Positions 12,173-22,236 of a DNA stretch of 36,392 nucleotides are shown here, piece by piece (the first letter of the stretch is position 1; every line of letters starts with the position of its first letter). The translations under genes and the position numbers were made by a program. A model generated the notes under the pieces. It was not told the origin of the DNA and made no database searches. It saw nothing but the letters and a program-made list of their open reading frames with translations. Source of the stretch: Pseudomonadota bacterium (GTDB lineage Bacteria > Pseudomonadota > Gammaproteobacteria > Burkholderiales > Burkholderiaceae_C). Location of the stretch: NCBI GenBank assembly GCA_021815805.1, contig JAKAZQ010000032.1, positions 1-36,392 on the forward strand, in the 5' to 3' direction.

Positions 12173-12337
12173 TCAGCGCGCCGCCTGCCACCAGGCCGCG
12201 AGCAGCAGCAGCGGCACGAGCAGCCAGCCGCCGGCAGCGGGCCACGCCCGCGCCGCCGCCAGCGCCACGATCACGCCTGCGGCCACGCAGCCGACGTTGC
12301 GCCAGTCCCCGAACACGAGTTGCAGCAGCTTTTTCAT
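12173..12337 (-). CDS. Small hydrophobic membrane peptide (54 residues)
   Basis: Short protein beginning MKKLLQLVFGDWRN with two hydrophobic stretches (about residues 16-31 and 36-50), so probably one hairpin in the inner membrane. No known family recognised. Its ATG overlaps the stop of the E-x-x-E membrane protein by ATGA, which supports translation and a linked role. It is the last gene of the transport operon; the convergent DUF3579 gene ends 43 nt away. Possibly a small accessory subunit of the neighbouring permease, which is inference only. Confidence 0.7.
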   Translation of the reverse strand: MKKLLQLVFGDWRNVGCVAAGVIVALAAARAWPAAGGWLLVPLLLLAAWWQAAR

Positions 12338-13077
12338 GCCCCGACTCCCGCTCCCGCCGGCAGCGGCGCGCGCAGCCGGGCAGCGAGCATGCGCCCGCAG
12401 ACGGCGTAGATGACGAACAGCAGCGGCAGCATCAGATCCCCCATCGGCCATGCCGCGCGCTCGCCGAGCAGCCCGGCCATGCTCCAGAAGCTGCCGAAGG
12501 CGAGCAAGGCGCTGGCGACCAGGAACTTGAGGGTGTTCTCGGGAACCGCGGTGAGCGGCGCGCGCAGCGCCAGCCCGACCACGATCACCAGCAGCAGCGC
12601 CAGCACGGCGGCCGACACCGATTGCGTCCAGTCGAGGCTGTGTCCCATGGCGACGACCAGCAGCCAGACTTCCAGGCCCTCCAGCAGCACGCCCTTGAAG
12701 GCGATGATCCAGGCTGCGCGCACCTCGGCGTGATCCAGCGCCTCGCGGGTCTCGCGGAACTCCTCGGCCTCGTCGTGCAGCGCCGTGCGCCCGGCGTAGC
12801 GACGCACCGCCTTGACGTACCAGCGCAGGCCGAACAACAGCAGGAACAGGCCGATGATCATGCGCATCGCGCCCATGTCGGCGGACACGAAGCGCAGTCC
12901 CGCGGCGCTGGCGGCGATGAGCACCGCCACGGCGGCCAGCGCGCTGGCCGCGGCGCCGGCTGCGCGTGCCCAGCCGATGCTCAGCGCGACCGCCAGCACG
13001 ATCGTGAAGGCCTCCACCCATTCGACGGCGCTGGCCGCGAAAATCGCCCCGGCCGCGCCCCAATGCATCACGTTCAT
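12334..13077 (-). CDS. Polytopic membrane protein with paired E-x-x-E motifs (COG4280-like)
   Basis: Inner-membrane protein of 247 residues, six or seven hydrophobic segments. It resembles the uncharacterised COG4280 group: VEWVEAFTIVLAV (residues 18-30), LLLFGLRWYVKAVRR, FKGVLLEGLEVWLLVVAMG (128-145) and VPENTLKFLV. The two acidic motifs EWVE (19-22) and EGLE (133-136), each at the start of a membrane helix, recall the REGLE motifs of FTR1-type iron permeases and the repeats of LysE-like transporters, so a cation permease is plausible but unproven. TGATG overlap with the ATPase gene upstream and ATGA overlap with the small peptide downstream place it firmly in the uptake operon. Confidence 0.75.
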   Translation of the reverse strand: MNVMHWGAAGAIFAASAVEWVEAFTIVLAVALSIGWARAAGAAASALAAVAVLIAASAAGLRFVSADMGAMRMIIGLFLLLFGLRWYVKAVRRYAGRTALHDEAEEFRETREALDHAEVRAAWIIAFKGVLLEGLEVWLLVVAMGHSLDWTQSVSAAVLALLLVIVVGLALRAPLTAVPENTLKFLVASALLAFGSFWSMAGLLGERAAWPMGDLMLPLLFVIYAVCGRMLAARLRAPLPAGAGVGA

Positions 13078-14192
13078 CAAGCTGCCCTTTGCTCTGGTTT
13101 CATGTTGTGCGCGGCGCGGGCGCCGTCGACCGGCGTCGCGTCGCGGTAGATCAGGGCCTGGCGCAGATCCACGCACAGGCCCACCCTGTCGCCCGGCGCA
13201 TGCCAGGCATGCGAGCCCAGGCGCACGGCCACGCCGTGCAACTGCGCCGCGATCTCGATGCCCTGGGGCGTGCTCAGGCAGCCCAGCACCTGGGCCTCGA
13301 CCGGCACGCCGTTGTCGGCCCCCGCAGGCCCGGCCAGGCGTACCGCGGCCGGCGGCAGGTACAGGCGCGCCGGCCATCCGGCGGGCCCCGGCGCCGCGCA
13401 GTCCGCCGGCAGCCTGCCCCACGGCGCATGCCAGGCGTCGTCGACCTGTCGCAGCGGCCATGGCCCGAGCGCGTGCAGGAAGCTGGCCACCTGCTCGCAG
13501 CAGGCCTGCGCGAGCAGGCGTCGCGGCGCATCGATCTGCAGCAGGCGCCCCTCGTCCAGGATGCCGACGCGATCGCCGAGCGCGAAGGCCTCGCGGTGGT
13601 CATGGGTGATGTACAGCGCCGACAGGCCGTAGGCGCGCACCACGTCGCCGATGAGTTCGCGCAGTTCCTCGCGCAGGCCGGCATCCAGGTTGGACAGCGG
13701 CTCGTCGCACAGCAGCAGTTGCGGACGAACCGCCAGCGCGCGCGCCAGCGCGACGCGCTGCTGCTGACCGCCGGACAGTTCGTGCGGTCGGCGCTGCTGC
13801 ATGGCGTCGAGGCCGACGCGGCGCAGCATGTCGCGCGCCTGCGCGTCGACGGCGGCGCCGCGCGGCGCACGCGCGCGCAGCGCCAGCGCCACGTTGTCCA
13901 GCGCACTCAGGTGCGGCCACAGCGCATAGTCCTGGAACACCATGCCCAGGCCGCGTCGCTCCGGGGGCACGGGAGCCATGCCCGGCCCGTCGACGGGGCG
14001 CCCGCCCAGCTCGATGCTGCCCCGGTCGAGGTGTTCCAGGCCGGCGACCAGGCGCAGCAGGGTCGTCTTGCCGGAGCCGGAGGCGCCCAGCAGGCACACC
14101 ACCTCGCCGGGCTCGATGCTCAGATCCACACCGCGCAGCGCGAGGTGATCGTGGAAGCGTTTGTGCACGTCGCGCAGTTGCAGCGCTTTCAT
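13077..14192 (-). CDS. ABC transporter ATP-binding protein (FbpC/PotA type)
   Basis: Cytoplasmic ATPase of 371 residues driving import with the adjacent permease. Walker A GASGSGKTT (36-44), Q-loop at 87, signature LSGGQQQR (139-146), Walker B LLLCDEP (159-165) and H-loop His197 are all intact. The C-terminal 130 residues fit a TOBE-type regulatory domain, as in FbpC, PotA and CysA. The ATG at 14192 has AGGAGAT upstream and overlaps the permease stop (ATGA). In the FbpC family the transported substrate is set by the binding protein, so this sequence alone does not identify it. Confidence 0.93.
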   Translation of the reverse strand: MKALQLRDVHKRFHDHLALRGVDLSIEPGEVVCLLGASGSGKTTLLRLVAGLEHLDRGSIELGGRPVDGPGMAPVPPERRGLGMVFQDYALWPHLSALDNVALALRARAPRGAAVDAQARDMLRRVGLDAMQQRRPHELSGGQQQRVALARALAVRPQLLLCDEPLSNLDAGLREELRELIGDVVRAYGLSALYITHDHREAFALGDRVGILDEGRLLQIDAPRRLLAQACCEQVASFLHALGPWPLRQVDDAWHAPWGRLPADCAAPGPAGWPARLYLPPAAVRLAGPAGADNGVPVEAQVLGCLSTPQGIEIAAQLHGVAVRLGSHAWHAPGDRVGLCVDLRQALIYRDATPVDGARAAHNMKPEQRAA

Positions 14193-15883
14193 CGGTGATC
14201 TCCTGGTGCGGGCCGCGCGAAGCGGCGCCTGGCGCGTCCGAAGCTCCAGCGCGCAAGCGCCGCGAAGCCCAGCAACAGTGCCATGCCCAGCAGTTGCAAT
14301 TGCGCCTGCAGCCGCAGCTGGAAGCCCGACGCGGCGTCGAGCAGGGCCACGGCCAGCGGGGCATGGCCGGCCGGGTACAGCAACTGCGAGGCCGGCAGTT
14401 CGAAGGCCACGTGCAGGGCCGCCAGCAGCCAGGCCGCACCCAGCGCCGGCGCGAGCAGCGGCCATTCGACATGCAGCAGGGCCTGCAGGCGCGACATGCC
14501 GTGCACGCGCGCCGCCTCGCCCAGGCTGCCGTGCAGCTGTGCCACCGGCCCCTGCAGCACGCGCGTGGCCGCCGGCAGCGCCAGCGCCACGTAGGCCATG
14601 GCGAGCAGGCCGCTGCCGCCGTACCACGGCGTCAGCGGCAGGTTGTACATCTGCACGTAGGCCGCCGCCAGCACGATGCCGGGCAGCGCCATCGCGGCGA
14701 CCAGGCCGAGGTCGACCGCGCGTCCGAGGCGCCCCGGCGCGCCGACGGCGCGGGCCGCGGCCCAGGCCAGCACGGTGGTCACGCTCGCCGCGAGCACGGC
14801 CATGCGCAGCGAGTAGCCGAAGGCCGGCAGCACCTGCGCCGCGGCCTGCAGGAAATTGCCGCCATGGACGCGGCCGCCGAACGCCAGCGTGGCCGCGCTG
14901 GCCAGCGGCACGCCGAGCGCGAGCACGGCCAGCGCCGCCGCCGCGCAGGCGTGCGGCGCGGCGCGGCGCGTGCCGAGCACCACGGCCGGCGGCGGGCGGT
15001 GGCGCGGTCCCACGCTGCGCGCGCCGGCGGCGCGCCGGCGCGCCAGCGATTGCAGCGCCAGCGCCGGCACGACCAGCGCCAGCAGCATCCAGGAGGCCGC
15101 CGCCGCGGCCGCGAAATTCACCGGCATGGCGGCCACCGATTGCTCGATGGCGTAGGTGGCCATGACCGTGCCGCTGCTCGCGCCGAGGGTGGCGGCGATG
15201 GCGAAGTCGCTCGCCGATTCGGCGAACGCGGCGGCGAAGCCGGCGGCCAGCGCGGGCAGCAGCGCGGCGACCGCGAGCAGCAGGCGCTGGTGCCGGCGCA
15301 GGCCGAGCACGCGCGCCGCCTCCTGCGGCGCCGCCGACACCCCGCGCAGGCTCAGTTGCACGGCCAGGAAGGTGTAGGGAAGCGCCTTGAACGCCAGGCT
15401 CAGCGTGATGCCCGGTGGGCCGAGCAGCGTCTGCGTCGCGCCGAGCGCCGCGGGCCAGTGCGCGAACGGGCCGACCGGCGCGGCCAGCAGCATCCAGCCC
15501 GAGGCGATGAAATAGCCCGGCATGACCAGCAGCAGCCACACGCCGGCCTCGATCCAGCTGCGCCAGGCCAGCAGCGTGCGCTCGCGCAGCCAGGCCAGCC
15601 AGGCCCCGACGGGCAGCGCCAGCAGGCTGGCCGCGGCGGCGGCCAGCCAGGTGTTGCCGAGTGCCTGCGCGCCGCCGCCGCTCCAGGCCTGCGCGAAGGC
15701 CCCGAGCGACGGCTCAAGACGCCCGTGCAGCAGTCCCGGCAGCCAGGCCTGCAGCAGGAAGCCACCGAGCGGCCAGCCCCACAGCGCCAGCGCCGCCAGC
15801 AGCAGCGGCGTCGCCGCGAGGCGCGACAGCAGCGCTGCGGCACGCGGCGTGAACGCCGCGCGCCGCGCGCCCGGATTCGTCAC
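14189..15883 (-). CDS. ABC transporter permease, two fused domains (FbpB type)
   Basis: Inner-membrane permease of about 564 residues with some twelve hydrophobic segments and two BPD-type domains in one chain, as in FbpB/ThiP. Each half has an EAA-like loop that contacts the ATPase: EAARVLGLRRHQRLLL in the first and EAARVHGMSRLQALLHVEWP in the second. The start is probably GTG at 15883, 11 nt after the binding-protein stop; a TTG at 15898 overlapping that stop is an alternative. Neither has a good ribosome-binding site, so translational coupling is likely. It overlaps the ATPase gene by 4 nt. Confidence 0.9.
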   Translation of the reverse strand: MTNPGARRAAFTPRAAALLSRLAATPLLLAALALWGWPLGGFLLQAWLPGLLHGRLEPSLGAFAQAWSGGGAQALGNTWLAAAAASLLALPVGAWLAWLRERTLLAWRSWIEAGVWLLLVMPGYFIASGWMLLAAPVGPFAHWPAALGATQTLLGPPGITLSLAFKALPYTFLAVQLSLRGVSAAPQEAARVLGLRRHQRLLLAVAALLPALAAGFAAAFAESASDFAIAATLGASSGTVMATYAIEQSVAAMPVNFAAAAAASWMLLALVVPALALQSLARRRAAGARSVGPRHRPPPAVVLGTRRAAPHACAAAALAVLALGVPLASAATLAFGGRVHGGNFLQAAAQVLPAFGYSLRMAVLAASVTTVLAWAAARAVGAPGRLGRAVDLGLVAAMALPGIVLAAAYVQMYNLPLTPWYGGSGLLAMAYVALALPAATRVLQGPVAQLHGSLGEAARVHGMSRLQALLHVEWPLLAPALGAAWLLAALHVAFELPASQLLYPAGHAPLAVALLDAASGFQLRLQAQLQLLGMALLLGFAALARWSFGRARRRFARPAPGDHR

Positions 15884-15894
15884 GGGCAGGGCGC

Positions 15895-16887
15895 TCAATG
15901 CAGTACGTGCGCGCTGAACCAGCTGTCCACCGCGCCCTCGCGCGGGCCCCAGATGCGCGGGTCGAGGCGCTCGCGCGCCGGCACCGCCAGCGACGACACC
16001 GCGGGCAGCGGCGCCACGCCCTGCAGCAGCGGCTGGTAGTTGGAGTCGGCGCTCGGGTCGCCATGCTGCATCGCGCGCTGTCCGGCCGGCGACAGCACGA
16101 AGGCGACGAAGGCGCGCGCCTGCGCGAGTGCGCGACCGCGCGCGGCGGCGCCGATGGCGATGTCGGAGGGCAATTCGGCCGACGGCGGCGCGGCCACGAT
16201 GCGCAGGCCCGGCTGGCGCGCCGCGAAGCCCAGGGCCGCGGAGCTCTGCACCACGGCGACGTCGATCTGGCCGTACTGCAGTGCGCGCAGCGTGACGCTG
16301 TTGGTCGGGTAGACGCGCAGCCCGTTCGCCTTGAGGCGCTCGAAATACGCCTTGCCGGCGCGCATGCCGTCGTGTTGCAGGATGCCGGCGACGAACGGGA
16401 AGGTGGGGCCGGAGATCGCCGGGTTGTTCATGCCGACCTTGCCGCGCAGCGCCGGGCTCGCCAGGTCGGCCCAGCTGCGCGGCAGCGTGCCGACGCGCCG
16501 CGTGTCGACGAGCATGGTGCCGGCGTAGGTCAGGCCGGTCGGCAGGTAGCAGCGGTCGGCCGGCAGCAGCGCGCGGCCGGCCGCGTCGTACGACACGCCG
16601 GGCATCCAGCCGCAGGCCAGGCGATGCTGCAGGGCCAGCTCGCGCATCGCCAGGTTGCCGTCGAACCAGAGCACGTCCCATTGCGCGCGCGCGCCTTCGG
16701 CCTGCACGCGCGCCAGCAACGGGCCCGTGCTCAGGTGCACGAGTTGCACCGGAATGCCCGTGCTGCGGGTGAAGGCCTGGGCCACTGCGCGGTCATAGCC
16801 GAAGGCCGCGTAGATGGTCAGCGGGCGCGCGCGCGCCACGCCGGCACCGGCGGCGGCCAGCAGGAGAGCGAGAACAAGCCTTTTCAT
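15895..16887 (-). CDS. Periplasmic binding protein of an FbpA-like ABC importer
   Basis: Secreted solute-binding protein of 330 residues with signal peptide MKRLVLALLLAAAGAGVARA. The fold follows iron(III)/thiamine/2-aminoethylphosphonate binding proteins: FTRSTGIPVQLV, DVLWFDGNLAM, SWADLASPALRGKVGM, FERLKANGLRVYPTNSVTLRA and GQIDVAVVQ. In FbpA the last block is followed by the two iron-binding tyrosines; here the aligned positions are Ser215-Ser216, and the usual Glu ligand aligns with Asp76. Bare Fe3+ bound in the FbpA way is therefore unlikely. The ATG at 16887 overlaps the tonB stop (TGATG), an unusual direct link of a binding-protein gene to tonB. Confidence 0.88.
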   Translation of the reverse strand: MKRLVLALLLAAAGAGVARARPLTIYAAFGYDRAVAQAFTRSTGIPVQLVHLSTGPLLARVQAEGARAQWDVLWFDGNLAMRELALQHRLACGWMPGVSYDAAGRALLPADRCYLPTGLTYAGTMLVDTRRVGTLPRSWADLASPALRGKVGMNNPAISGPTFPFVAGILQHDGMRAGKAYFERLKANGLRVYPTNSVTLRALQYGQIDVAVVQSSAALGFAARQPGLRIVAAPPSAELPSDIAIGAAARGRALAQARAFVAFVLSPAGQRAMQHGDPSADSNYQPLLQGVAPLPAVSSLAVPARERLDPRIWGPREGAVDSWFSAHVLH

Positions 16888-17597
16888 CAGTTGTTCGAAA
16901 GGTGAAAGCGGACCCAGATGACGAAGGACAGCGCGTGTCCGGCCAGCGCAGCCGGTGGTTGCGGATAGGGCGCCGTGCGCACCGCCCGCAATGCCGCGCT
17001 GTCCAGAGACGGCACGCCGCTGGACTTGACGACGTGCACCTGGCTGACTCGGCCGTCGATGAAGGTGAAGCCGACCAGCGTGCGACCCTCGACCTGCATC
17101 AGGCGCGCGCTTTCCGGGTAATGCACCGCATCCTGCACGGCCTCGCGCAGCAGCGCCTCGAAGCTCATGCGCAGCGCAGCAACGTCGGCCTTCGGCGGCT
17201 TGCGCGGCGGCGGCGGCGGTGGTGGCGGCGCCACCGGCATGGTCGGCCGCGTCGCCGGCGCGGGCGTCGGCGGCGGCTGGATGCGCGGCTTCGGCGGCGC
17301 CGGAGGCGGCGGGTGGTGCACCACGTGGTGCACCACGCGCGGCTTCGGCTTGGGCAGCACCTTGGGCTTGGGCTTCGGCGGTGGCGGCTTGGGGGTCACC
17401 ACCTTGGGGGGCGGCTTGGGCTGCGTCAGCGTGATCTCCACCGGTTGCGGCGGGGGCGGGGGCGCGGGCCGGCTGGACCACCAGGCGAGGGCTGCCAGCA
17501 CCAGCAGCTCGATGAGCAGGGCCAGTGCCGTGGCGGTGGCCCAGCGCCGGCCTTCGCCGGGTTCGCGTGCGGCGTGCGACGGAAGGGTTGCGGACAC
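16887..17597 (-). CDS. tonB: TonB energy-transducing protein
   Basis: Inner-membrane-anchored periplasm-spanning protein of 236 residues that carries proton-motive energy from ExbBD to the outer-membrane receptor. One N-terminal membrane helix (19-40) precedes a long Pro/Lys linker (44-136) and a C-terminal TonB domain (about 146-234) with HYPESARLMQVEG, VGFTFIDGRV and VVKSSGVPSLDSAALRAV. The linker contains a VVHHVVHH element (88-95). The start is GTG at 17597, 2 nt after the exbD stop; no ATG precedes the helix. The 3' end overlaps the binding-protein gene. It probably serves the receptor encoded upstream. Confidence 0.92.
   Translation of the reverse strand: MSATLPSHAAREPGEGRRWATATALALLIELLVLAALAWWSSRPAPPPPPQPVEITLTQPKPPPKVVTPKPPPPKPKPKVLPKPKPRVVHHVVHHPPPPAPPKPRIQPPPTPAPATRPTMPVAPPPPPPPPRKPPKADVAALRMSFEALLREAVQDAVHYPESARLMQVEGRTLVGFTFIDGRVSQVHVVKSSGVPSLDSAALRAVRTAPYPQPPAALAGHALSFVIWVRFHLSNN
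17313..17336. repeat. Tandem palindromic 12-mers forming a 24-bp perfect palindrome in tonB
   Basis: GTGGTGCACCAC occurs twice in direct succession. Each copy is its own reverse complement, so the whole 24 bp is also a palindrome. It encodes the His-rich VVHHVVHH segment of the TonB linker. Confidence 0.9.
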
Positions 17598-17599
17598 GT

Positions 17600-18001
17600 T
17601 CAGGATCCGGTTTGCTGCTGCGCCGCGAGCCCGATGCGCGTCACGCCGGCCTGGCGGCAGGCGTCCATCACCTTCATCAGCAATTGCAGCGAGGTATGCC
17701 GATCCCCGGCGAGGATGACCTGCAGGTGCGACGGATCCGGCTTGTTCTTCAGCACCTGGGTCAGCTGTTGCGGGGTGAGCGCAAGTCCGCCCAGGTGGAT
17801 CTGGCCCTGGGCGTCGACCACGATGGTGACCTGCGGCGGCGGCAGCGCCTGCGCCGTGGAACTGGTCGGCAGGTGCGAATTGATGCCGTCGGCCGGGATC
17901 ATGCGCAACGTGACCATGATGAAGAACACCAGCAGGAAGAACATGATGTCGATCATCGGGATGATCTCGATGCGTGCCTTCTTGGTTTCGAAATATTTCA
18001 T
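17600..18001 (-). CDS. exbD: ExbD biopolymer transport protein
   Basis: Inner-membrane subunit of the TonB motor, 133 residues. The N-terminus IEIIPMIDIMFFLLVFFIM carries the membrane helix with the conserved proton-path Asp of the ExbD/TolR family (about residue 18), and the periplasmic domain follows (VTIVVDAQGQIHLGG, VILAGDRHTSLQLLMKVMDACRQAG, family-typical). The ATG at 18001 is preferred because ExbD proteins begin a few residues before this helix. It lies 84 nt after exbB and 2 nt before tonB in the same operon. Confidence 0.93.
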   Translation of the reverse strand: MKYFETKKARIEIIPMIDIMFFLLVFFIMVTLRMIPADGINSHLPTSSTAQALPPPQVTIVVDAQGQIHLGGLALTPQQLTQVLKNKPDPSHLQVILAGDRHTSLQLLMKVMDACRQAGVTRIGLAAQQQTGS

Positions 18002-18085
18002 CGCGCAAGACAAAAGACGCCGCGACGAGCGCGGCGGTGAAGCGGGAGACCGTTCCCGCACGGAGATGAACGGAAAGCCTCCGGC

Positions 18086-18859
18086 TCAGGCCGCGCTGGC
18101 CTGCAGCGCATGCGGCAGCGGCGCAGCGGTGGCGACGGGCCCGGCCGGCGCGGGCGCCGTCGCCGGCGCCTTGCGACGCGGCTCGTTGCCGCTGCTGTGG
18201 CTGGTGCTGGTGCTGGCGCTGGCGCCGGCACCGGCGCGGTAGTGCGGGTACATGCGGTTCGCCAGCATCAGCTTGATGCGTTCGAGCTGGTGCATGACCA
18301 GGCGCACGCGCTGATGCAGCGCATTGAAGGCCACCAGCCCGAGCACGGCGATGAACAGTCCGGCCGCGGTGGCCATCAGCGCCTCGCCGACGCCACCGGT
18401 CACCGCCTGCGTGGCGGCGCCCGGATGGGCCAGTGCCTGGAAGGTGTTGAACATGCCGATGATGGTCCCGAGCAGGCCGAGCAGCGGCGCGAGGGTGACG
18501 ATGGTGTCAAGCATCCACAGACCGCGGTCGATGCGCGGCGCCTGGTCCATCACGGCCTCCTCGAGGCGGTCGCTGAAGTGATCCAGCGGGTCGCCGAGGT
18601 CGTGGTGCAGCGCCACGGTCACGACCTGTGCCGCCGGCGAATGGGTGTCGCCCTGCAGCGCATCGCGCAGCGAGTCGGGATCCACGTGGGCGCGGCCCTT
18701 GAGTTCGCGTACCCAGCCGCGGCACTGCGCCTGCATGCGGCCGAGCGCCCAGAAGCGCTCGATGGTCACGGCCAGTGCCACCAGCAGCAGCACGGCCATC
18801 AGGTAGAGGATGCCGCCGGATTTATGCGCGGCGTCGAGAAGGATTTGCAGGGAAAGCAT
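18086..18859 (-). CDS. exbB: ExbB proton-channel protein
   Basis: Inner-membrane component of the TonB energising complex, 257 residues. Three hydrophobic segments: residues about 17-34, and the characteristic pair around LDTIVTLAPLLGLLGTIIGM and GVGEALMATAAGLFIAVLGLVAFN, which are the MotA/TolQ/ExbB channel signatures. GGAGAT 8 nt before the ATG supports the start. The last 45 residues form a Ser/Thr then Ala/Pro-rich low-complexity tail not typical of ExbB. It lies 57 nt after the receptor gene and is followed by exbD. Confidence 0.93.
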   Translation of the reverse strand: MLSLQILLDAAHKSGGILYLMAVLLLVALAVTIERFWALGRMQAQCRGWVRELKGRAHVDPDSLRDALQGDTHSPAAQVVTVALHHDLGDPLDHFSDRLEEAVMDQAPRIDRGLWMLDTIVTLAPLLGLLGTIIGMFNTFQALAHPGAATQAVTGGVGEALMATAAGLFIAVLGLVAFNALHQRVRLVMHQLERIKLMLANRMYPHYRAGAGASASTSTSHSSGNEPRRKAPATAPAPAGPVATAAPLPHALQASAA

Positions 18860-18916
18860 TGCACGATCTCCAGAGCGCGACCGGACTCCTGTTCCGGATC
18901 CGGCCGCGCGGCATGA

Positions 18917-21337
18917 TTAGAAGTCCGCCGAAATGCCGGCGTAGAAGGTGCGCGGTGCGCCTTGGTCCGCCAGGATGAAACCGGTGGATGGCAGGTTGTT
19001 GCTGAAGTAGATGTCGTTTGCCGTGCTGATGGTTTCAATGCTGTTGTATTGCTTGTTCAGCAGGTTCAGTACGCCGACATTGAATTTCCAGTCGCGAATC
19101 CAGTGTTCATGGACCGGCACCGTGGCATGCAGTTGGAGATTCCAGACGCCGTAGGCGGGCATCTGCTGGTTGGTGGGTGCACCTGCCAGATTCGACCAGA
19201 TGTACTGCGATCCGGTGTACTGGTAGGACAGAGCGCCATCCCAGAGCACCTGGGCTGCATAGAGCTTGTAGTCGACGCCGGCGCTCAGGGTGCGATCGGG
19301 CACATTGGAGACCGGAAGTCCGCTGTAGGTGGTGCTTCCGGGGCCACCCGAGGTGTAATTGTTGAAGGTCGCCTTCTCGAAATTCATGTTCGCGAAGGCG
19401 GTGGTATTGTAGGCAACGCGGTCGGACACGCTGAGGTCGAATCCCTTGTAGACCGAGTCGCCGTTGGCGTCGAAATAGGTCGTGCCGACGGTGTAGGGAA
19501 TGTATTGGTTGCTGTAATGGAGATGGTAGTAGGCCAGCGACAGCAGGAAGTCGTGGAGATAATCGGCCCGACGCACGTGGATCTTGAAGCCGACGTTGTA
19601 ATCCGTTCCCTTTTCGAGATTGAACGTGGATCCCTTCTTCTGGAACAGGCCGCCACCTCCGCCTACCGCCGGCTCCTTGTACGTGATGGCGTAGTTGCCG
19701 AATGCCGCCAGCCAGGGCCGCACGCGGTAGTTCGCGCTGATCGACGGTTCGAACTTGTGGTGACTGGCCGTGGCCCCCACCGAATTGGCTCCCTGCGCCG
19801 TGCAATTGGCACCGCTCGGGCAGCCCTCGAGATTCCAGGCGGCAGCAAAATCCGTGGCGTCGCCCGGGCTGTAGATCGTGGAATAGTCGACGAACCGGAT
19901 CCCGGGTGTGACATCGAGTTGCTGGATCGGGCGGATCCTGTCCTGCGCAAACAGCGCGAGATCCGTCTGGTCGAAGTAGTTGCTGCGGAAGTTTCCGTTC
20001 GGCAGGGTCTGGCTACCGTTCGCGAACGGCGCGGCACCTGCGCCGACCGGGGTGGCGTTGGGCATCCAGAACGCATTGCGCGTGTTGTACGTGCTCTTCA
20101 GCACGAATCCACCAAACGAAATCTTGTTGTGTGGCAGGGAAAGATCGGCCCACAATTTGTCACCGTAGACTCGCGTCGACGGATTGTTGTGCTCGTACAT
20201 ATAGCAACCGTACGTGCAATCGGCATTGGTTCCCCAGATGCTGAAATGATCATGCAGGCGCTTGGTGAGTTGGTACCAGAGCAGGTTGTGCAACGTCGTA
20301 TTCTGGTCGATGGCGACGTTGATCTTGCCGTACAGCATCCGCGTCGCGTTGCTGTCGTTCTTGTTCCATACCGAGCCCGGGGCCGCGCTGTAGAAGCCGG
20401 TCGCCTGCTGGCTGAGATAACCCGTGTTGTTCGTGCCGTCCAGGGTCAGGCCGGGGACGTTCGTGATCGGGATCGGCGCCGGGCGGAAGGCTGTCGAACG
20501 CGAGTTGTAGAAGCCGACGGAGAAATTGCCGCCCTGGAATTGCTTGCGCGTCTTCAGGAAAAGGGCCTCGTTGCTTGCCGGGCTGGAGAAACCGTCGGGC
20601 GTGGTGCGGAAGCTGTTGGAAGACGACGTGCCCCCGGCGATGACCGTCGACCAGCCGTCGAAGGTCCCGGTGTTGAACAGGTAGTGCAGGCCGCGCGAGC
20701 TGTCGCTGCCAAAACTGATGCCGACCGAGCCGCCGGCCTTGGCCTGCGGCTGAACCGGCACGAAGGCGATCTGGCCGCCGATGTTGTTGAACCAGCGATC
20801 CTCGGGGTCGCCGGGGCCTTTGGTGACGCCGATGCCCTGGATCAGGCTCATCTGGGGAACGAGGTCGGTCTGCCACAGGCCCGTGGACGGGTCGCTCATG
20901 GGGACGCCGTCGAAAGTGACCGAAATCGAACCATCGTCGATCTGGCCGCCGGAAAAGCCGCCCCAGCCCTGCTTGATCCCGTTGACGCTGATCTGGTTTT
21001 TCGTGCTGCCGCTCGAGCCGTAGCCGGTGACCGCGACGCCCGGCGCCAGCTGCAGGACTTGCCCGGAACCGGCGAAGGCGCCGGCCGAATCGATTTCCTG
21101 CTGGCCGAGCACCGTGGTCGACTGGCCGGACTTGAAGACAGCCTTCTTGGTGATCTTCTTTTCCTGACTGGTCTTGTCCGCGTGGCGCGTGCCGACGCTG
21201 GCGCCGGCTTGTACCGTGCCCAAGGCGGCGGGAGCCTGTTGAGCCCGCGCCGCGGGTGCGGCCGCGAGCGCGATCAGAATCGCCTGGGAAAGCCATTGCC
21301 GGCGAAATCCCGGCTGTTGGGTGAAGCGCTGTTTCAT
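18917..21337 (-). CDS. TonB-dependent outer-membrane receptor
   Basis: Outer-membrane beta-barrel importer of 806 residues. A signal peptide ends at about residue 32 (AAPAARA before QQAP). The plug domain shows VLGQQEIDSAGAFAGSGQVL, LAPGVAVTGYGSSGSTKNQI, FDGVPMSDP and VTKGPGDPEDRWFNNIGGQI; the barrel follows and ends in phenylalanine (ISADF), as required for Bam-dependent insertion. GGAGG 5 nt before the ATG fixes the start. Two cysteine pairs (CTYGC and CPSGANC) sit in likely surface loops. Base composition differs from its surroundings: the 60-nt rows starting at 19501 and 20101 are 30/60 and 29/60 GC, against well above 65% in neighbours. First gene of the nine-gene operon; substrate unknown. 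Confidence 0.93.
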   Translation of the reverse strand: MKQRFTQQPGFRRQWLSQAILIALAAAPAARAQQAPAALGTVQAGASVGTRHADKTSQEKKITKKAVFKSGQSTTVLGQQEIDSAGAFAGSGQVLQLAPGVAVTGYGSSGSTKNQISVNGIKQGWGGFSGGQIDDGSISVTFDGVPMSDPSTGLWQTDLVPQMSLIQGIGVTKGPGDPEDRWFNNIGGQIAFVPVQPQAKAGGSVGISFGSDSSRGLHYLFNTGTFDGWSTVIAGGTSSSNSFRTTPDGFSSPASNEALFLKTRKQFQGGNFSVGFYNSRSTAFRPAPIPITNVPGLTLDGTNNTGYLSQQATGFYSAAPGSVWNKNDSNATRMLYGKINVAIDQNTTLHNLLWYQLTKRLHDHFSIWGTNADCTYGCYMYEHNNPSTRVYGDKLWADLSLPHNKISFGGFVLKSTYNTRNAFWMPNATPVGAGAAPFANGSQTLPNGNFRSNYFDQTDLALFAQDRIRPIQQLDVTPGIRFVDYSTIYSPGDATDFAAAWNLEGCPSGANCTAQGANSVGATASHHKFEPSISANYRVRPWLAAFGNYAITYKEPAVGGGGGLFQKKGSTFNLEKGTDYNVGFKIHVRRADYLHDFLLSLAYYHLHYSNQYIPYTVGTTYFDANGDSVYKGFDLSVSDRVAYNTTAFANMNFEKATFNNYTSGGPGSTTYSGLPVSNVPDRTLSAGVDYKLYAAQVLWDGALSYQYTGSQYIWSNLAGAPTNQQMPAYGVWNLQLHATVPVHEHWIRDWKFNVGVLNLLNKQYNSIETISTANDIYFSNNLPSTGFILADQGAPRTFYAGISADF

Positions 21338-21451: not shown

Positions 21452-21468
21452 CAGGTTGCGCAAACCTG
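21452..21468. promoter_or_regulatory. Short inverted repeat between regulator and receptor genes
   Basis: CAGGTT and AACCTG flank a 5-nt centre (GCGCA), 9 nt beyond the stop of the regulator gene. Too short and without a U-tract to be a convincing terminator; an operator half-site pair is equally possible. Confidence 0.3.
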
Positions 21469-21477
21469 TCCGTCTTC

Positions 21478-22236
21478 TCACCGGAATCGCGTAGTTGTTT
21501 CAAATCCTGATGCGTCCGCAGCGTCCGCGGCCCAGCGGTAGCCGCTTCCGTGCACCGTTTTCAGGCAAGGCTCCAGCCCGTGTTCGCGCAGCACCCGGCG
21601 CAGCTTTCCCACCGCGGTGTGCAGCGCCTGCGCGTCGGCGCGCGCCGGAATGTCGAGGGCCACGCGCAGGCTGGCGCTGCTCAGCACATGGCCGGGGCGC
21701 TCGCACAGCGCCCACAGCAGCCGGAACATCTGCGGCTGCAGGCGCGTGCTGCGGCCGGCGTGGCGCAGTTCGCGGGTCGCGGCCAGCAGCGTGCGCCCGG
21801 CACCCAGGTTCAGGGATCCCCCCGGTGGCGGCGCCACGCGATGGCGCAGGTTGGCCAGTTGCGCCTGCAGCAACGGCGTCGGCACGGCCGCCGGCAGGAC
21901 CACGTCGGCGCCGGCACGCAGCGCCTGCAGGGCCACCGGCCCCTGCGCATCGTCGACCAGCGCCAGCAGCACGGCGCGCATCGACGACGGGTGGTGGCGC
22001 ACCCGCATCATCCAGTCCAGCGCCGGCGAGGCGTGGCCTTCGCAATGCAGCAACGCGGCCCAGGAGCAGCCCTCGCTGAGCTGGCGCAGTGCGGTGTCGG
22101 GACACGCGGTCTGGGCGTTTTCCAGCGGGCAGGCGGGCCCGTGGTCGAAGCCCACGTAGAGTACCGAGTGCTTCGACGCGGAGGGCTCGGGCGCGGAGGG
22201 CATGGCGGGGGGCGAAAGCTGCGACAAGCGCAGCAT
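21478..22236 (-). CDS. OmpR-type winged-helix regulator with a degenerate receiver domain
   Basis: Predicted DNA-binding regulator of 252 residues. The C-terminal 75 residues match the Trans_reg_C winged helix: LQPQMFRLLWALCERPGHVL, then ALHTAVGKLRRVLREHGL and KTVHGSGYRW. The N-terminal part has the rhythm of a receiver domain (VLYVGFDHG, VLLALVDDA, ALRAGADVVLPA) but the expected phospho-acceptor region reads WAALLHCEGHAS with no aspartate, so it is probably a phosphorylation-independent pseudo-receiver. No kinase gene is nearby. It lies 29 nt after secF and 140 nt before the receptor gene on the same strand, making it a candidate regulator of the uptake operon. ATGs at 22236 and 22203 are both possible starts. 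Confidence 0.78.
   Translation of the reverse strand: MLRLSQLSPPAMPSAPEPSASKHSVLYVGFDHGPACPLENAQTACPDTALRQLSEGCSWAALLHCEGHASPALDWMMRVRHHPSSMRAVLLALVDDAQGPVALQALRAGADVVLPAAVPTPLLQAQLANLRHRVAPPPGGSLNLGAGRTLLAATRELRHAGRSTRLQPQMFRLLWALCERPGHVLSSASLRVALDIPARADAQALHTAVGKLRRVLREHGLEPCLKTVHGSGYRWAADAADASGFETTTRFR

Follow-up and report, generated by a model that had tools for sequence, protein, structure and literature searches.

A putative TonB-powered import operon of the Thiomonas group with an apparently exchangeable receptor and a distant relative of iron permeases

We analysed a stretch of 36,392 nucleotides (nt) from a Pseudomonadota bacterium (assembly GCA_021815805.1, contig JAKAZQ010000032.1, positions 1 to 36,392), an entire contig here called the window, and the predicted import operon that it carries. 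The open reading frames, the DNA itself and Pfam matches place nine genes at 12173-21337, all on the minus strand, in the positions given by an initial annotation of the same DNA. They encode a TonB-dependent receptor, ExbB, ExbD, TonB, a periplasmic binding protein, the fused permease and the ATPase of an ATP-binding cassette (ABC) transporter, a membrane protein with two E-x-x-E motifs, and a small hydrophobic protein. The receptor barrel and plug, ExbB, ExbD and the C-terminal domain of TonB each score above the Pfam cut-off. The features of the locus are as follows.

21478..22236, minus strand: OmpR-type regulator, in the same place in relatives; the match is to the DNA-binding domain only (PF00486, 7.6e-12)
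21464..21481, minus strand: a pair of 7-bp (base pair) direct repeats at a spacing of 11 bp, upstream of the receptor gene; candidate regulator site
18917..21337, minus strand: TonB-dependent receptor, class A (PF00593 and PF07715 above cut-off)
18086..18859, minus strand: exbB (PF01618, 3.2e-29)
18018..18036, minus strand: terminator-like hairpin with T-run in the exbB-exbD gap
17600..18001, minus strand: exbD (PF02472, 9.3e-30)
16887..about 17597, minus strand: tonB (PF03544, 1.6e-12), GTG start read from the DNA
15895..16887, minus strand: periplasmic binding protein, FbpA/AfuA/PhnS fold (PF13531, 2.6e-18; fold search)
14189..about 15883 (GTG start), minus strand: fused double ABC permease (PF00528, two stretches)
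13077..14192, minus strand: ABC ATPase (PF00005, 3.5e-36)
12334..13077, minus strand: OFeT_1/FTR1-like membrane protein with two E-x-x-E motifs
12173..12337, minus strand: small hydrophobic protein with Gly and Asp near the N-terminus (in at least 90% of 17 rows)

The overlapping junctions of the initial annotation were borne out by coordinates and DNA alike: tonB/binding protein and ATPase/membrane protein share TGATG, and permease/ATPase and membrane protein/small protein share ATGA. The remaining gaps are about 57 nt (receptor/exbB), 84 nt (exbB/exbD), 2 nt (exbD/tonB) and 11 nt (binding protein/permease). While the nine genes are real, the unit had been drawn without the OmpR-type regulator at 21478-22236, which keeps its place in relatives. 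A Pfam search found no receiver-domain match in the regulator, and Rfam, tRNA and PADLOC scans returned no matches.

The gene order recurs in other genomes. The full span from regulator to small protein was present in 12 of 25 scanned stretches (L023, L026-L033, L035, L036 and L042), and in 11 of these 12 complete Thiomonas-group stretches all ten genes stand in this order; in the twelfth, L033, the tonB match alone is missing and a 784-nt gap occupies its place. Searches that scored a limited number of candidates per genome found the membrane protein in 25 of 28 genomes of the genus (G152 has a broken copy only), and elsewhere in 3/150 genomes of the family, 6/250 of the order (two weak, one with stops), 8/321 of the class (one weak), 8/337 of the class of G245 (one partial) and 10/398 of the phylum. 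Receptor, binding protein, permease, ATPase, membrane protein and small protein recur together in five other families (L108/L109, L181, L182, L184 and L186). At these loci exbB and exbD were seen at L108/L109, L182, L184 and L186 and not at L181, and regulator-like genes were found at L181, L182, L184 and L186. Smaller sets also occur: at two loci of another family (L102, L104), the membrane/small-protein pair comes after a binding protein, permease and ATPase of 32-49% identity; the set at L075 consists of receptor, membrane protein and small protein, and that at L081 and L083 of the pair alone. L075 and L081 have common surroundings. The binding-protein subfamily was detected in 5/321 class genomes at E 1e-40, with the membrane protein adjoining in 5/5, in a search in which all five genomes had supplied rows of the query profile and at most six candidates per genome were scored.

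This distribution, over the Thiomonas group and five other families, agrees with the original view of the genes as one dedicated system. That they are unrelated transport genes, neighbours by accident, is highly improbable. The varying order in L072 and the absence of exbB and exbD from L060-L064 would suit such an accident; recurrence across six families and constant companionship speak against it, and a chance neighbourhood was discarded on the strength of the recurrence.

Across 27 loci, the pairwise distances of the eight non-receptor components correlate with r of 0.78-0.98, and for each of the 28 component pairs none of 500 permutations reached a correlation as high. The distances of the receptor, set against those of the eight other components, gave r of only 0.10-0.37. 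Two receptor classes, A and B, alternate among the loci, with at least five class changes on a core tree. This quick tree of four core proteins has class labels on 25 of its 27 rows; some of its branches are weak and three are long. We conclude from the gene orders and protein distances that regulator, ExbB, ExbD, TonB, binding protein, permease, ATPase, membrane protein and small protein have a conserved order and a shared history, and that the receptor of the system is, by the same kind of evidence, exchangeable.

Receptors of both classes have a sequence in common at the N-terminus. The motif LG[TS]V[QS]A is present in 10 of 15 readable starts, namely in class A receptors of the window, L073, L026, L027, L060 and L109 and in class B receptors of L031, L042, L076 and L181. 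Near variants occur in L072, L182, L184 and L186, and L075 differs. The other four receptors of the window's genome have different starts that lack the motif. The shared motif is compatible with a private TonB, of which it is no proof. Among the plasmid matches of the receptors, the listed annotation of their contexts contains no ABC or membrane-protein genes. L187, on the mobilizable plasmid pACRY05 of Acidiphilium cryptum, encodes a receptor of 36% identity, followed by an ExbB gene and then by insertion sequence (IS) elements; it is perhaps a remnant of such a system.

The membrane protein was characterised by profile and motif comparisons. It scores 21.9 bits against OFeT_1 (PF16955), whose gathering score is 26.9, and four of five homologues pass. 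In hhalign its profile matched 15 FTR1 proteins at 89%, over the second half only; the controls gave 0.1% (permease), 0.1% (ExbB) and 0.3% (reversed FTR1 profile). FTR1 proteins (PF03239) have two R-E-x-x-E motifs, which are also visible in the FTR1 alignment. The two E-x-x-E motifs of the membrane protein are invariant in 20 rows and lie 114 residues apart, compared with 115-119 residues in FTR1 proteins that have two motifs at that place. Judging by these comparisons, the membrane protein is a distant member of the OFeT_1/FTR1 superfamily. It resembles OFeT_1 and FTR1/EfeU permeases in the two motifs, their spacing and the profile similarity, and differs from them in the missing Arg (Val and Leu stand in its place in 20/20 rows), in its small partner and in the lack of an oxidase among the operon's genes. 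A search found no FTR1 gene in the window's genome, a PDB search with the membrane-protein profile gave two chance-level matches only, and a plasmid search with the protein gave no match. In L176 (3966-4709), an internal repeat is suggested by a match between the first half of the membrane protein and the second half of the OFeT_1 profile.

The small hydrophobic protein (53-84 amino acids) follows the membrane protein in 69 of 74 loci, and 60 of these 69 pairs overlap by 4 nt; the 74 loci lie on about 64 contigs that are distinct by length, 59 of them with the small protein, and L048-L059 are outside the count. The five misses are L047 and L111, L183 and L185 (same family), and L072, in which another search did find the small protein. 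L047 (G152) and L111 (G043) carry broken copies of the membrane-protein gene. Searches with homologues (ten queries, of which five were small proteins) assigned the small protein to no Pfam or NCBIfam family. Because it follows the membrane protein also where the transporter is absent, we regard the two as a separate module. Thus the extra permease of the initial annotation, to which no role had been assigned, is indeed permease-like and now has a superfamily, and it belongs to an independent pair. A few neighbours of the lone pair recur weakly, and none is constant. RpiR-like regulator genes adjoin the membrane protein in L100 and L102, from two different families, and L099, L100 and L103 have another membrane-protein gene nearby in common.

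The pair could also be a metal exporter that guards the cell against metal arriving with the ABC substrate. Its presence without the transporter in other lineages would agree with this, as would two homologues that weakly match GDT1, a cation/proton antiporter family, below cut-off, and a metal-rich habitat, as deduced from metagenome-assembled genomes of acid mines. The nearest characterised relatives, FTR1/EfeU, import iron (stated also in PMC2631029), and an exporter is quite unlikely.

By sequence and by fold, the binding protein groups with FbpA/HitA, AfuA, VcA0625 and the 2-aminoethylphosphonate and thiamine binders. The fold search returned HitA at E 2.2e-19 with template modelling (TM) scores of 0.72/0.77, and the FbpA fold is present; the model has a fair predicted local distance difference test (pLDDT) value of 78.6, the five models spreading widely from 78.6 to 36.9. 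The iron-binding tyrosines of FbpA are the consecutive residues 195 and 196 of the H. influenzae protein, mutants of which are named in PDB titles. Both are replaced in the binding protein, by Ser216 and Ala217, invariant in 12/12 alignment rows: Asn-Asn-Tyr-Tyr of FbpA aligns with Gln-Ser-Ser-Ala, likewise invariant in 12 rows. Its Ser-Gly-Pro stands opposite FbpA's Ser-Gly-Ala stretch, an anion site in that protein. In the Thiomonas binding proteins the N-terminus is, by eye, a signal peptide, and those of L108, L109, L181, L182 and L186 have instead a hydrophobic stretch resembling an uncleaved membrane anchor.

Since the iron tyrosines are absent, the transporter is not a plain importer of Fe3+ ions, and the term FbpABC-type of the initial annotation does not hold in the sense of an iron(III)-ion importer; plain FbpABC iron uptake was rejected as an established identity. 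An importer of the FbpABC kind, in which the receptor brings a ferric chelate, the binding protein strips the bare Fe3+ from it and this ion enters by way of the ABC transporter, is unlikely. It would account for the ferric-binding proteins as nearest solved structures by sequence and fold, for the siderophore and heme families with which the receptor scores below cut-off, and for an iron-permease relative inside the operon. The replaced tyrosines count against it, as does the upstream region, where the best Fur box has 9/19 positions and is equalled in 221 of 300 shuffles, not above chance. FbpABC/HitABC share with the operon the binding-protein fold and the type of permease and ATPase; the operon differs in the absent iron tyrosines, its own receptor and its own TonB set.

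A second alternative is an importer of phosphonates or organophosphates, in which the receptor takes up a phosphorus compound that is large or metal-bound, its import falls to the ABC transporter, and the membrane/small-protein pair balances metal or charge. The best NCBIfam matches of binding protein, permease and ATPase are the 2-aminoethylphosphonate families PhnS2, PhnU2 and PhnT2, and the binding protein of L102 is closest to sugar-phosphate and pyridoxal-phosphate binders; all those matches fall under curated cut-offs. Among neighbouring genes, hints at phosphorus are confined to relatives. In L105, phnM (645.5 vs 486 bits) and DUF1045 genes adjoin the pair. In G1340, a calcineurin-like phosphoesterase gene (PF00149 above cut-off) lies downstream of a second ABC set; the binding protein of this set resembles 2-aminoethylphosphonate models at scores below cut-off, and the first matches of the permease are to sulfate models. 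Acidophile TonB clusters also adjoin PhoB-like regulators and phosphate genes, according to PMC2631029 (section 9). On the other side, the best Pho box is equalled in 106 of 300 shuffles, not above chance, and no phosphorus gene was found at the Thiomonas loci within a search for 14 window proteins. We consider this importer doubtful. The operon resembles PhnS2-U2-T2, AfuA, VcA0625 and P5PA in its best NCBIfam matches, in close folds and in a Ser/Thr-Gly and a Ser-Gly stretch of the alignments; it differs in the sub-cut-off scores, the coupling to a TonB receptor and the E-x-x-E permease.

Two features may bear on expression. In 13 related sequences, the two 7-bp repeats upstream of the receptor gene are identical at a mean of 4.85 of 7 positions at lag 11 (next best lag, 3.15), with the anchor taken from these same sequences and a third pattern derived from a relative. 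A repeat spacing of 11 bp is usual for OmpR-type sites. The second feature is a hairpin with T-run 13-24 nt before exbD, found in 18 of 25 loci and in 18 of 20 of the Thiomonas group, whereas the rest of the scanned stretches has 11 such sites in 230,841 nt (0.003 per 60 nt). In the window alone, a simple terminator scan found 6 sites where 4.9 were expected, no more than chance. The stem sequences vary by locus: a hand count from the loop over 17 of the 18 hits (L041 dropped) gave 13 different 5' arms, with both sides changed in 3-8 rows at pairs 3-7. This count is biased towards pairing, which was the criterion by which the hits had been picked. RNAalifold on a MAFFT alignment of the exbB-exbD gap gave only 5 pairs at -2 kcal/mol, a result that we discounted, the stems being out of register in the alignment. 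A conserved terminator-like hairpin thus interrupts what had been read as a seamless unit. The short distance between hairpin and exbD leaves little room for a promoter, and therefore expression from exbD onward probably depends on read-through. By eye, no clear Shine-Dalgarno sequence precedes exbD in the window (18001-18036) or in relatives; a T-rich stretch is found ahead of the start codon instead, and the T-run could therefore also serve translation.

The whole is best explained, with a probability of roughly 0.4, as one dedicated TonB-powered importer with a putative anionic metal chelate as cargo. Control of the operon probably lies with the adjacent OmpR-type regulator. Whichever its class, the receptor would carry the chelate across the outer membrane, powered by its own ExbB-ExbD-TonB; the ligand would be of phosphonate, organophosphate or carboxylate type, and the metal most likely iron(III). 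The binding protein may take either the anion alone or the complete complex, the likely anion site being formed by its invariant Ser-Thr-Gly and Ser-Gly-Pro stretches, and would pass the cargo to permease and ATPase. Metal released in the periplasm would use the E-x-x-E permease as its entry, the small protein being a subunit of that permease. The hairpin before exbD may end part of the transcripts, leaving receptor and ExbB in excess over the rest. This reading fits the phosphorus hints, the acidophile TonB clusters and the iron-permease relative.

Several results weigh against this reading. No result here names the cargo. The ferric-binding HitA comes first by E-value in the fold search, alongside binders of sugar phosphates, phosphonates and thiamine, the NCBIfam scores are far under cut-off (PhnS2 49.4/392.75, PhnU2 48.6/593.25, PhnT2 246.5/457.7 bits), and phosphorus genes are missing beside the operon in the Thiomonas stretches, within the search already described. 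The model of the membrane protein is weak (pLDDT 69.8), its fold search found no solved structure at E 0.001, and its pair with the small protein exists without the transporter. exbB and exbD were unmatched in L060-L064 and near L181, and the order differs in L072. The hairpin is missing in L042, L072 and 5/5 loci outside the Thiomonas group, and the window's exbB-exbD gap folds only modestly better than shuffles (z -1.90, 8/200). Finally, in a within-genus comparison of 11 loci (55 pairs), the flanking secF correlates at r 0.80-0.93 with binding protein, permease, ATPase, membrane protein and regulator, and exbB follows secF less (r 0.46) than the receptor does (r 0.55). Because most components track secF, co-variation within the genus is mostly plain descent. 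A split cargo, with the anionic ligand of the chelate entering through the ABC transporter, the metal through a new kind of two-subunit permease (OFeT_1-like, with the small protein as its obligate partner), and a terminator before exbD setting how much receptor and ExbB is made relative to the rest, is possible, if rather doubtful.

For the dedicated importer of a metal chelate, a close published comparison is with acidophiles. PMC2631029 (sections 9 and 10) describes receptors and ExbB-ExbD-TonB downstream of OmpR-family PhoB-like regulators, with phosphate or phosphonate genes, in Acidithiobacillus and Leptospirillum, among them a 13-gene cluster of A. ferrooxidans with two receptors, one TonB system and two ABC systems; uptake of phosphate-chelated iron is proposed for them. 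These clusters are like the operon in receptor, ExbB-ExbD-TonB and OmpR-family regulator; unlike the operon, they have no FTR1-like or small protein named inside them in those sections; an Ftr1-like permease is reported separately in Leptospirilla. Literature searches on the terms used did not find the system, and a search for COG4280 gave no papers. If the reading is true, a complete import route from outer to inner membrane lies within one gene cluster, and a receptor swapped by evolution while the rest stays constant offers a natural setting for asking which part decides specificity. The iron-permease-like protein and its small partner extend far beyond the operon, and a terminator inside the ExbB-ExbD unit would be a simple means of making ExbB and ExbD in unequal numbers.

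The window's genome has 10 ExbD matches, several of them adjoining other receptors, and five receptors in all. The private energy module, described at first as a departure from the normally shared one, is not unusual in this genome: since other TonB sets are kept, that of the operon is one of several. Three further TonB-ExbB-ExbD-ExbD sets lie at L150, L151 and L152 (contigs C50, C35 and C23). Those on C50 and C35 adjoin a receptor each, and C50 also has sugar-related genes. The sets on C35 and C23 are near-copies that adjoin a peroxiredoxin-like gene.

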